From NCBI RefSeq assembly GCF_000403785.1, contig NZ_APHJ01000021.1, positions 620,001 to 684,000 of the forward strand: a stretch of 64,000 nucleotides of DNA, written 5' to 3'. Below the pieces are notes generated by a model. It did no database searches. It was not told where the DNA came from and saw nothing but the letters and a program-made list of their open reading frames with translations. The stretch is from Gillisia sp. CAL575. GTDB taxonomy: Bacteria > Bacteroidota > Bacteroidia > Flavobacteriales > Flavobacteriaceae. Positions 22,062 through 50,860 of this stretch are shown here, piece by piece (position 1 is the first letter of the stretch; every line of letters begins with the position of its first letter). The position numbers were made by a program, and so were the translations under genes.

Positions 22062-22925
22062 TTAGCTTGATTTTCTGAAGAAATAGGCAATGGAAGAATA
22101 CTCTGATGACTTTTTTGCTTTAAGATTAGATTTGAGTCCTATTAAAAAGGCTTTCAAAAAATTGCTCTTTTTAGTCATGTATTTTTCTGAAAGTAGACTC
22201 ACATAAAATGAATCATACAATAAAGGTTTTTCATCGAACTGTGAGAAAGTAGTCCCACTAAATAGTTTTTCGAAACTCTTTCGGGAAAAATGCCATAAAT
22301 GCCTTGGCACATCAAAAGCTGCCCAATGCTCTTTATAATATAAAGCGTCATAGCTTTTAAAATTGGGCACGGCAATAATTAATAACCCATCCTTTTTAAG
22401 CAATTGTTCCAATTCTATTATTTGATTCTTTAAATCGTAGACATGTTCAAATACATGCCACATTGTAATTACGTCAAATTTTTCAGCTTTAAACTTAGAT
22501 GAATCTGGAAGTAATTTAATTCCTTTTTGCTTTGCCAGCTTTCGAGCATTTTCATCTGGCTCTATCCCTTTAACTTTCCAACCATTATTTTTTGCTGTCA
22601 ATAAAAACTCCCCTGTTCCCGCTCCAATATCTAAGAGTTTGCCTTGCTCTGGAAAATTAGATTCTATCCAACTTAACTTTTTAGAAAGCATCCTTTTTTT
22701 AACGCTATGATAAATCTTATCTGTAAAAGAATTTTTAGAATCGGTATGAGAAATGTACTCTTCACTTTTATAATAGGAAGGTAAAGCTTCTATAGATGGT
22801 TTTGGAGTTGTGATTAAAAGATCCATTTCCAGATCTAATATCAATTTAAACTCCTCTCCAGAAACCGTATGATCCTTACAAGTAATATAAATTGGATTTG
22901 ATTTTTTTTCCTTGGAACTATTCAC
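22062..22925 (-). CDS. Class I SAM-dependent methyltransferase
   Basis: 287 residues. The SAM-binding motif LLDIGAGTGEFL is near residue 100, followed by KGIEPDENA and an acidic loop MWHVFEHVYDL. The N-terminal 60 residues form a short beta-rich part seen in capsule or O-antigen methyltransferases. There are no membrane segments. It follows mnmG on the same strand with a 74-base gap that contains a parS site, so co-transcription is possible. The substrate is unknown; a lipid-linked sugar is a reasonable guess from relatives. Confidence 0.85.
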   Translation of the reverse strand: MNSSKEKKSNPIYITCKDHTVSGEEFKLILDLEMDLLITTPKPSIEALPSYYKSEEYISHTDSKNSFTDKIYHSVKKRMLSKKLSWIESNFPEQGKLLDIGAGTGEFLLTAKNNGWKVKGIEPDENARKLAKQKGIKLLPDSSKFKAEKFDVITMWHVFEHVYDLKNQIIELEQLLKKDGLLIIAVPNFKSYDALYYKEHWAAFDVPRHLWHFSRKSFEKLFSGTTFSQFDEKPLLYDSFYVSLLSEKYMTKKSNFLKAFLIGLKSNLKAKKSSEYSSIAYFFRKSS

Positions 22926-22981: not shown

Positions 22982-22997
22982 TGTTCCACGTGAAACA
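22982..22997. promoter_or_regulatory. parS site (ParB-binding), copy 1
   Basis: TGTTCCACGTGAAACA matches the classical bacterial parS sequence (the Bacillus subtilis form) at all 16 positions. It sits two bases beyond the mnmG stop codon. A perfectly palindromic relative lies 1.9 kb away on the other side of mnmG. Confidence 0.85.
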
Positions 22998-22999
22998 AT

Positions 23000-24871
23000 T
23001 TATCTTCCCATATAAACAAGTAGCACAGAAATATCACTTGGGCTTACTCCACTAATTCTAGATGCTTGAGAAATCGTTACGGGCTGAATCTTATTTAATT
23101 TCTCTCTAGCTTCAAACGACATAGATTTAATATTGGTGTAATCGAAGTCCTGCGGGATTTTAATATCCTCTAGCCTATGCAATTTATCTGCATTGTTCTT
23201 TTCCTTATTTATATATCCTGCATATTTAACTTGAATTTCGGTTTGCTCTAGCATCTCTTCATTCAATTCATTTTCAGCAATAAAATCATTTACTCCAGGA
23301 AATTCCATCACATCTTCCATAGTGATATTTGGTCTTGAAAAGATCTTAAATATCTTATCACTTTGTTTCATTGGAGCAGAATCTTTAGCTTCTAAAACCG
23401 GATTAGAGAACTCTGGAGTAACACTAGTGTCGTGTAGGTAATCCACAAAACTCAAGGATTTCTCTTTCTTCTCCTCCATCTTGCGAAGTCGCTTTTCTGA
23501 TGCTAAACCTAAATCAAAGGATTTTTGGGTAAGCCTAAAGTCGGCATTATCTTGTCTTAACAAGGTTCTATATTCTGCTCTAGACGTAAACATTCTATAA
23601 GGTTCTTCTGTTCCTTTGGTTATAAGATCATCTACCAAAACACCAATATACGCCTCGTCTCTTTTTAAAATAAATGATTCTTTTTCCTGAACCTTTAAAG
23701 CGGCATTTATACCAGCCATTAAACCTTGAGAAGCTGCTTCTTCATACCCAGTGGTCCCGTTAATCTGACCAGCAAAATACAATCCATCTACCAACTTAGT
23801 TTCTAGAGTATGCTTTAATTGTGTTGGTGGGAAATAATCATATTCTATTGCATATCCCGGTCTAAAGAACTTCACTTTTTCAAATCCAACAACAGACCGC
23901 AATGCTTTAAATTGAACATCTTCTGGTAAAGAAGTGGAAAAACCATTGACATATACCTCACAAGTTTTCCAACCTTCAGGCTCAACAAATAACTGATGCC
24001 TATCTTTATCTGCGAATCTATTTATCTTATCCTCTATAGAAGGGCAATAACGTGGCCCGACACTTTGTATTCTTCCATTAAACATTGGAGACCTATCAAA
24101 ACCTTCTTTTAGCAATTCATGCACTTCTGGAGAAGTATATGTCATGTAACAAGATCGTTGTTTTGATAGAGGTTTTGTATCATCTAAGTAAGAGAATTTA
24201 GATGGTTTTACATCACCAGGTTGTTCTACCATTTTGGAATAATCTAAAGATCTTCCATCTACTCGTGGAGGAGTTCCAGTTTTCATTCTGCCAGATTCAA
24301 ATCCTAACTGAATAAGCTCTTCTGTTATTCCTGTTGAAGCTCTTTCTCCAGATCTACCTCCACCAAAATTCTTATCTCCAATATGAATCAATCCATTTAA
24401 GAAAGTACCATTAGTAAGAACTACAGATTTCCCTTTTATCTTTAATCCAAGTGAAGTTTTTATACCAACTACGGCTCCTCCTTCTACAATTAATCCGGCC
24501 ACCATTTCTTGATAAAAATCCAGATTTGGTGTTCCTTCTAGCCTCAATCGCCAGTGATCTGCAAACATCATTCTATCACTTTGCACTCTTGGACTCCACA
24601 TTGCAGGACCCTTAGACTTGTTTAGCATTTTAAACTGAATTGCACTAGTATCACTTACTAATCCGCTGTATCCACCTAAGGCATCTATCTCACGAACTAT
24701 CTGACCTTTTGCAATTCCTCCCATGGCGGGATTACAACTCATTTGAGCTATATTCTGTAAATTCATAGTTACCAAAAGGGTTTTAGAACCCATATTAGCG
24801 GCAGCGGCTGCGGCCTCACTTCCAGCGTGACCAGCTCCAACAACAATTACATCATATATTTCACTAAACAT
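23000..24871 (-). CDS. mnmG: tRNA uridine-5-carboxymethylaminomethyl modification enzyme MnmG (GidA)
   Basis: 623 residues, full length. With MnmE it modifies U34 of certain tRNAs using FAD and NADH. The N-terminal FAD site is VGAGHAGSEAA at about 11-21. It is followed by the family signatures CNPAMGGIAKGQIVREIDALGG near 48, GTPPRVDGRSLDYS near 200, and GYEEAASQGLMAGINAAL near 370, and a helical C-terminal domain. mnmG is often near the replication origin in bacteria, and here it is flanked by two parS sites. It follows ybeY by 13 bases. Confidence 0.98.
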   Translation of the reverse strand: MFSEIYDVIVVGAGHAGSEAAAAAANMGSKTLLVTMNLQNIAQMSCNPAMGGIAKGQIVREIDALGGYSGLVSDTSAIQFKMLNKSKGPAMWSPRVQSDRMMFADHWRLRLEGTPNLDFYQEMVAGLIVEGGAVVGIKTSLGLKIKGKSVVLTNGTFLNGLIHIGDKNFGGGRSGERASTGITEELIQLGFESGRMKTGTPPRVDGRSLDYSKMVEQPGDVKPSKFSYLDDTKPLSKQRSCYMTYTSPEVHELLKEGFDRSPMFNGRIQSVGPRYCPSIEDKINRFADKDRHQLFVEPEGWKTCEVYVNGFSTSLPEDVQFKALRSVVGFEKVKFFRPGYAIEYDYFPPTQLKHTLETKLVDGLYFAGQINGTTGYEEAASQGLMAGINAALKVQEKESFILKRDEAYIGVLVDDLITKGTEEPYRMFTSRAEYRTLLRQDNADFRLTQKSFDLGLASEKRLRKMEEKKEKSLSFVDYLHDTSVTPEFSNPVLEAKDSAPMKQSDKIFKIFSRPNITMEDVMEFPGVNDFIAENELNEEMLEQTEIQVKYAGYINKEKNNADKLHRLEDIKIPQDFDYTNIKSMSFEAREKLNKIQPVTISQASRISGVSPSDISVLLVYMGR

Positions 24872-24884
24872 AAATCTCCTTTTT

Positions 24885-25319
24885 TTAAGATTGTTCCACG
24901 TGGAACAATTTCATTTTTTCCTCTTCTTTGCTTCTCATAAGAGCAGCTTCCTCTTCTGTTTTATCCTTGTAGCCACTAAGATGTAAAATCCCATGACTTA
25001 AAACTCGTCGCAATTCATCATCAAACTTTACATTAAAAGTTTCAGAATTTTCATGCACGCGCTCTGTACTTATATATATCTCACCCTGCAAAATTTTACC
25101 TGCAGAATAATCGAAAGTTATAATGTCTGTATAAGTATCGTGATCTAGATATTCAATATTGATCTTAAGTAGATATTCGTCGTCACAAAAAATATAACTA
25201 ATTTCCTCCAGAGTCATTTCTTCAGAAATAATTACATTTTCTAGCCATGAAGCATAACGTGCTTCATCCTCCAGGATAAATTCGTTTTCGGAATAAAAAT
25301 TAATTTTCGATAGATTCAA
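24885..25319 (-). CDS. ybeY: Endoribonuclease YbeY (16S rRNA 3'-end maturation)
   Basis: 144 residues. The metal-dependent RNase acts in 16S rRNA maturation and ribosome quality control. The HGILHLSGYKD motif starts at residue 109 (H109, H113), and the third canonical His is replaced by Asp (D119), with Lys at 118. I recall this variant in other Bacteroidota, so it need not mean loss of function. The start overlaps the end of the DUF4175 gene by 20 bases. Its last codons (F-H-V-E-Q) are written in a perfect parS palindrome. Confidence 0.93.
   Translation of the reverse strand: MNLSKINFYSENEFILEDEARYASWLENVIISEEMTLEEISYIFCDDEYLLKINIEYLDHDTYTDIITFDYSAGKILQGEIYISTERVHENSETFNVKFDDELRRVLSHGILHLSGYKDKTEEEAALMRSKEEEKMKLFHVEQS
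24892..24907. promoter_or_regulatory. parS site (ParB-binding), copy 2, inside the ybeY 3' end
   Basis: TGTTCCACGTGGAACA is a perfect 16-base palindrome, one base from the copy at 22982-22997. It forms the F-H-V-E-Q codons at the C-terminus of YbeY. Confidence 0.82.
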
Positions 25320-40808: not shown

Positions 40809-41716
40809 ATGGGACATAATCACGATCATGGAAATATTAAGGATGTAAAAGGTAAAAATCTTTTAATTTCTATATTTCTTAATATTGGAATTACAATTGC
40901 ACAGGTAATAGGTGGCTTGTTAAGTGGAAGCTTAGCTTTACTTTCAGATGCACTCCATAATTTTAGTGATGTTCTCTCATTATTGGTAAGTTATATAGCA
41001 AATATTCTTTCTAAAAAAGATGCTTCGTTAAAACATACATTTGGATATAAAAGAGCCGAGATTGTTGCGGCTTTCGTTAATGCCTCTACTCTTATTGTTG
41101 TAGCAGTAATTCTAATTATAGAAGCAGCTCAAAGATTTAAGAATCCAGAAACTATTAATTCTAATTTAGTTATTTGTTATCCATTTTAGCAATTTTAGGA
41201 AATGGATTTAGTGTTTTGCTATTAAAAAAAGATAGTAAAGCCAACCTTAATATGCGCTCTGCATATCTACATTTACTTACAGATATGATGGCTTCTGTAG
41301 CTGTTCTAGCCGGGGGATTATTAATGAAATATTATCAAATTTTCTGGATAGATAGTGTACTTACTCTAGCTATTGCGATTTATCTGATTATCGTAGGTTA
41401 CGATCTCTTGAAATCGGCTACTAAGGTGCTTATGCTTTTTACACCTAGCGATCTCGCTTTAGAAGATATAGCTGAAAAAATTTGTACTATTTCTCAAATA
41501 AAGAACGTTCATCATCTACATGTATGGCAACTAAATGAAGCAGAAATTCATCTAGAAGGACATGTGGATTTTTATGATGATATTAACCTGACTAAGTTTG
41601 AAGAAATACTTTCTGAAATAGAAGAATTAGTGTATCATTCCTACGGAATAAATCATGTGAATATTCAACCTGAATTTGGAAAGTGTGATAATAAGGATCT
41701 AATAGTTCAGGATTAA
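40809..41716 (+). pseudogene. Cation diffusion facilitator (zinc-type efflux) gene split by a one-base frameshift
   Basis: Two overlapping frames together make one CDF transporter of about 300 residues. The first (40809-41189) has the His-rich start MGHNHDHG, LALLSDALHNFSDVL with the metal-binding D/H residues, and FGYKRAEI. The second, from about 41174 to 41716, continues with LSILAILGNGFSV, the second metal site HLLTDMMASVAV, and the cytoplasmic C-terminal domain (HHLHVWQLNE). The break is at 41176-41177: ATTTGTTATCC gives ICYPF-stop, whereas one extra G would give I-W-L-S-I-L, the sequence expected in the family. Either a recent mutation or a sequencing error. If real, zinc efflux by this gene is lost. 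Confidence 0.85.
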
Positions 41717-50730: not shown

Positions 50731-50860
50731 CATTTTTAATTCTATTTTACTTTAAATTAGAATTAAAGCCCTACTAATACTTACTTTTTGAGCATTGGGA
50801 ATACTAATTTTTGAATAAACTAAAAATGGTAAATGCCATTTTTAATAAAATAATTTTTGA

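Follow-up and report, generated by a model that had tools for sequence, protein, structure and literature searches.

A pair of probable parS sites brackets mnmG in Gillisia sp. CAL575, a position kept in most of the Bacteroidota sampled

Results

The window, that is, the whole 64,000-nucleotide stretch of Gillisia sp. CAL575 DNA that we analysed, carries mnmG (gidA) on the minus strand at 23000..24871 (Pfam GIDA, E 8.1e-161) and, upstream of it on the same strand, ybeY at 24885..25319 (Pfam YbeY, E 1.3e-25), with an intergenic space of 13 bp between the two. A methyltransferase gene (22062..22925, minus strand, Pfam Methyltransf_23) lies downstream of mnmG and is a neighbour only. Two 16-bp palindromes, to which no strand is assigned, bracket mnmG: the downstream one, TGTTCCACGTGAAACA at 22982-22997, begins 2 bp beyond the mnmG stop codon, and the upstream one, TGTTCCACGTGGAACA at 24892-24907, is read in frame as part of the last codons at the 3′ end of ybeY, the translated protein ending in LFHVEQS. 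They differ from one another by one base, and each shows 0 mismatches to the ParB-binding parS consensus TGTTYCACGTGRAACA. A preliminary description of this DNA had reported an exact 16-mer twice, at these positions and on either side of mnmG. The positions are as claimed, each copy fits the consensus and mnmG is indeed bracketed, but the two copies are not identical and the upstream site is inside ybeY rather than intergenic. The C-terminal tail FHV[E/K] of YbeY is the translated parS (24885-24907), one sequence being both centromere site and coding sequence.

The same description held that such a pair was very unlikely to arise by chance, and our counts bear this out. With up to three mismatches, and with each palindrome scored on both strands, the window yields six rows, which correspond to four places, against a shuffled mean of 0.29, and none of 100 shuffles reached six. 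Nor are exact sites scattered: throughout the 3.64-Mb, 53-contig draft genome the pair gives the only two exact matches to TGTTYCACGTGRAACA, and the same search returned a third parS-like site, with two mismatches, on another contig. Elsewhere in the window, a cation-efflux transporter (40809-41716) is covered by two overlapping open reading frames in different frames (40809-41189 and 41174-41716); these align with consecutive portions of a single Pfam family, which suggests that the gene is interrupted or has been misread.

The position beside mnmG is conserved. We compared 80 named mnmG loci, which are the best 80 of 587 confirmed and so lean to close relatives. Upstream of mnmG, 79 of them have a site with at most two mismatches no farther than 400 bp away, 75 also have one within that distance downstream, and 63 contain an exact site. 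As a background, the same best 80 loci hold 26 such sites over the 1,207 kb that lie more than 1.5 kb from mnmG, which would give 0.009 per 400 bp. Over the 79 upstream and 75 downstream sites, the GTT, CACGTG and AAC positions are near-invariant. The exception upstream is a Capnocytophaga locus (L092) with no site of up to two mismatches, though its genome encodes ParB; at the same threshold, L089, L098, L099 and L100 are without a downstream site within 400 bp of mnmG. What holds in the window also holds in 24 of these best 80 of 587 loci: the end of a ybeY relative contains the upstream site in frame and has the tail FHV[E/K], so that the centromere sequence there also codes the protein end.

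Multi-site parS-like arrays occur upstream of mnmG in L035, L038, L039 and some other Flavobacterium loci; L035 has 12 parS-like sites in 1.2 kb, where most relatives have one. A weaker site 4.5-8.4 kb downstream of mnmG, present in 7 of the best 80 of 587 loci, was considered as a third parS and rejected, because the string codes for LPRETAGY(V/L)PAFLA within a protein whose relative in the window carries SLT and LysM domains. This recurring parS-like coding string (L021, L022, L023, L028, L040, L043, L048) is a conserved transglycosylase motif, and it calls for caution with parS counts based on the motif alone.

The class and phylum samples provided 57 usable loci; L210 (genome G129, with a 22-residue mnmG match) and genome G166, which has no locus, were left out of these and kept in the count of exact sites. 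A site of up to two mismatches lies within 1.5 kb of mnmG in 53 of the 57, upstream in 37, downstream in 37 and on both sides in 21, and is missing in L183, L189, L191 (upstream flank of 125 bp) and L223. A whole-genome search for exact sites in 54 class and phylum genomes found 73 sites in 42 genomes, of which 57 are no more than 500 bp, and 65 no more than 2 kb, from mnmG. The other eight are one 43 kb off (G141), two at 7 and 13 kb (G171), three at about 5 kb (G148 and G153) and two on another contig (G157). As exceptions to the pattern, four genomes encode ParB and have no site detected next to mnmG, namely G122, G131 (upstream flank of only 125 bp), G141 and G157; the last two have exact sites elsewhere in the genome.

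Within the order-level sample, 58 of 118 genomes contain an exact match, and in 24 of those without one we inspected the mnmG locus. Fifteen of the 24 fall outside a family of endosymbionts with genomes of 0.3-0.6 Mb (f14), and 14 of these 15 have a site of up to two mismatches near mnmG; the fifteenth (G005) has none in the upstream flank, and the 3′ end of its mnmG is cut off. In the endosymbionts, by contrast, none of the nine genomes tested (of 23 in the sample) has a site of even three mismatches within 1.5 kb of mnmG. The same nine have no ParB_N match, while the other 15 of the 24 genomes in that search do, and all nine retain mnmG and a ybeY relative. With ParB and the sites gone and mnmG kept, the sites in this lineage follow ParB, not mnmG. 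As this is one family of reduced genomes, represented by 9 of 23 members, the loss perhaps reflects one event.

The Gillisia genome encodes one ParB_N protein, on contig C21, whereas the parS pair is on C20; proximity of the sites to parAB, a common rather than defining feature, is thus not seen here. The protein is full-length, with ParB_N, HTH_ParB and ParB_C domains, its best relatives of solved structure belong to the ParB and Spo0J proteins, and an AAA_31/ParA-type ATPase gene immediately precedes parB, so that ParA is encoded beside ParB. The absence of a parB gene, which the preliminary description had named as grounds for abandoning its reading, is therefore not what we find. In an alignment to Noc, this ParB carries Arg and Gly at two positions that are Gln and Arg in Noc, and Lys at position 184, as in Noc. 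Passages of PMC7383237 describe the two residues of the Arg/Gly type as absolutely conserved among ParB proteins and as altered in Noc, and position 184 as variable among ParB proteins. Going by those passages, the protein has the parS-type specificity residues, and the Noc-type Gln and Arg are absent from these two positions of the genome's single ParB_N protein. The dnaA gene is on a third contig, C23.

We searched twelve relatives with a parS match for ParB_N and DnaA. Eleven are single-contig assemblies, and the distances below refer to these, G071 (10 contigs) being left out; distances are circular and use rounded genome sizes where the exact length was lacking. In all eleven, the parS sites are separated from dnaA by 0.75-1.70 Mb and from the best-scoring ParB_N gene by 0.75-2.20 Mb. 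A second ParB_N protein is closer to parS in G075 (0.28 Mb) and G098 (0.44 Mb). The extra ParB_N proteins (G098:C1:1993959, G071:C1:359368 and G075:C1:1872522) have 616, 616 and 336 residues of open frame, and the usual ParB in those three relatives has about 300. In the complete relatives G066, G087 and G098 the record begins at dnaA, and the pair is 1.0-1.55 Mb away.

The GC skew suggests that the pair lies close to the origin. Over 276 kb of the draft genome (C20:460001-735795), the cumulative skew drops to a minimum at 670,784, position 50,784 of the window, and then climbs; this point, which marks the approximate origin side, is 26-28 kb (25.9-27.8 kb) from the parS pair. Nearness to the replication origin is here read from the skew alone, with coarse agreement in four complete relatives. 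Sampled skew, fitted on the presumption that origin and terminus are spaced by 0.3-0.7 of the circle, put the origin 27-47 kb from parS in G037, 37-117 kb in G066 (a weak fit, amplitude 0.023), 92-212 kb in G075 and 95-235 kb in G017. Contiguous sequence of G037 has its minimum 19 kb from parS, and that of G066 shows a local minimum at a distance of 135 kb. DnaA boxes are not in excess in the window (21 seen against 19.06 expected), and inspection of the intergenic stretches around the skew minimum turned up no oriC.

The preliminary description had proposed that the window lies in the origin-proximal domain and that the pair is a ParB loading zone. With a skew minimum 26-28 kb off and both ParB and ParA encoded, this appears well supported. 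Its suggestion that the sites be mapped against the skew minimum, dnaA and parAB gave a divided answer: the minimum is near the pair, but dnaA and parAB are on other contigs and, in complete relatives, far away.

The gene order around mnmG changes across the phylum. In 25 phylum loci (L214-L238), a single-sequence search, which may miss divergent copies, detected neither ybeY nor the methyltransferase gene within 400 bp of mnmG; a site lies within 600 bp of mnmG in 24 of these 25. Their flanks hold an mnmE relative in 10 of 25 and an rsmG relative in 13 of 25, and a Pfam check of three flank proteins returned one MnmE and two GidB. Four of these loci were extended to 12 kb: three have mnmE and rsmG, and one has neither. 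The idea that parAB is still beside mnmG in distant members of the phylum was rejected, the four 12-kb stretches having no ParA or ParB match at E 1e-6.

Discussion

Judged by every feature that can be tested in the sequence, the pair at mnmG appears to be a real parS centromere and should act in the ordinary way. To the reading that the sites form a ParABS centromere of the ordinary kind, anchored at mnmG while parAB and dnaA lie elsewhere, we assign a probability of about 0.9. ParB, supplied by the parA-parB operon on another contig, would bind each palindrome, load as a CTP-dependent clamp, slide to neighbouring DNA and coat the mnmG region; ParA would then separate the newly replicated origin region. 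Clamp loading is established for ParB in general. Across the Bacteroidota, the centromere would be anchored beside mnmG, in many species with one site per side, and parAB and dnaA would lie elsewhere. What is unusual is the setting: the sites stand apart from parAB and dnaA and, through most of the phylum sample, are anchored at mnmG. The preliminary description was right about the pair, and the phylum-wide result is larger than what it had claimed.

It is highly improbable that the palindromes are instead operators through which ParB or another regulator controls mnmG or a ybeY-mnmG operon, with segregation secondary or absent. ParB-family proteins can regulate genes, which counts for such a role, and in most loci the sites adjoin one or both ends of mnmG. 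Nevertheless, in the window the upstream site is inside the ybeY coding sequence and only 13 bp separate ybeY from mnmG, a promoter-like excess is absent from the region (9 seen against 13.3 expected, for the sigma-70 type only), and a placement that varies between upstream only, downstream only and both is ill-suited to one operator. Moreover, mnmG persists in all nine tested endosymbiont genomes from which sites and ParB are both gone. Scarcely credible at all is the notion that the palindromes are RNA hairpins, for example transcription terminators, that resemble parS by accident. They do fold as single-stranded RNA (-6.5 and -9.5 kcal/mol), and a terminator scan scored one of the two sites as terminator-like, but the match is on the plus strand, antisense to the operon, the scan found 2 against 1.8 expected, as chance would give, and the folding z-scores are modest (-1.43 and -2.83). 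Beyond the pairing, it is the sequence itself that is near-invariant at GTT, CACGTG and AAC among the sites of the best 80 of 587 loci.

If the sites are parS, as we hold, the remaining question concerns their address. It seems rather probable that they are real parS whose location is a matter of shared ancestry and synteny only, mnmG being irrelevant to their persistence. The mnmE-mnmG-rsmG order is familiar from many bacteria near oriC, and relatives of mnmE and rsmG flank mnmG in 10 and 13 of the 25 distant loci, so the arrangement may be an old one that has simply persisted. Sites elsewhere also occur in some lineages (G141, G157). The likeliest history, we infer, is that parS was already at mnmG in the old mnmE-mnmG-rsmG neighbourhood and stayed while other genes moved. 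Against a role for synteny alone, the sites remain at mnmG although the neighbours differ between Flavobacteriales and the distant loci. That a parS bracket or cluster is kept at mnmG for a functional reason across most Bacteroidota, with parAB and dnaA free to move, is nonetheless the less likely account and one that we put forward tentatively; such a reason might lie, for example, in the loading of ParB at either flank of one transcribed gene, or in a tie between the expression of mnmG and the segregation of the origin.

Whichever holds, parS beside mnmG offers a simple landmark for the origin-proximal centromere where dnaA seems a poor guide. With such a landmark, origin placement, coverage-based growth-rate estimates and studies of chromosome folding in Bacteroidota could be put to a direct test. 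It also poses the question of why a centromere stays with one tRNA-modification gene. A rule placing parS at mnmG in Bacteroidota is absent from the titles and abstract openings in the literature searched, and the available part of PMC13342612 adds nothing on mnmG.

Several known systems bear comparison. The accessible text of PMC7333895 gives parS as commonly near the origin and variable in number. In the part of PMC10197239 available to us, a Hi-C study of 12 gut bacteria including two Bacteroidetes, parS clusters are at the skew-defined origin, the origin is not always at dnaA, and the two Bacteroidetes have no known condensin; our sites resemble that set in lying near the skew origin, and mnmG or an adjoining gene goes unmentioned in that part. 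Noc and its NBS nucleoid occlusion sites share with our system a related DNA-binding family and a palindrome, as the excerpt of PMC7383237 describes them; the ParB found here departs from Noc at the two key positions (Arg and Gly rather than Gln and Arg) and shares Lys 184 with it. The closest likeness is to chromosomal ParABS (ParB/Spo0J, ParA/Soj), with which the locus has in common a 16-bp palindrome with a CACGTG core, present as few sites, a ParB of ParB_N/HTH_ParB/ParB_C architecture with an adjacent ParA, and sites near the skew-inferred origin. It departs from that system in that parAB and dnaA are on other contigs here, with dnaA and the best-scoring ParB gene at least 0.75 Mb away in the 11 single-contig relatives, and in that the sites, here and in most of the phylum sample, are anchored beside the housekeeping gene mnmG.
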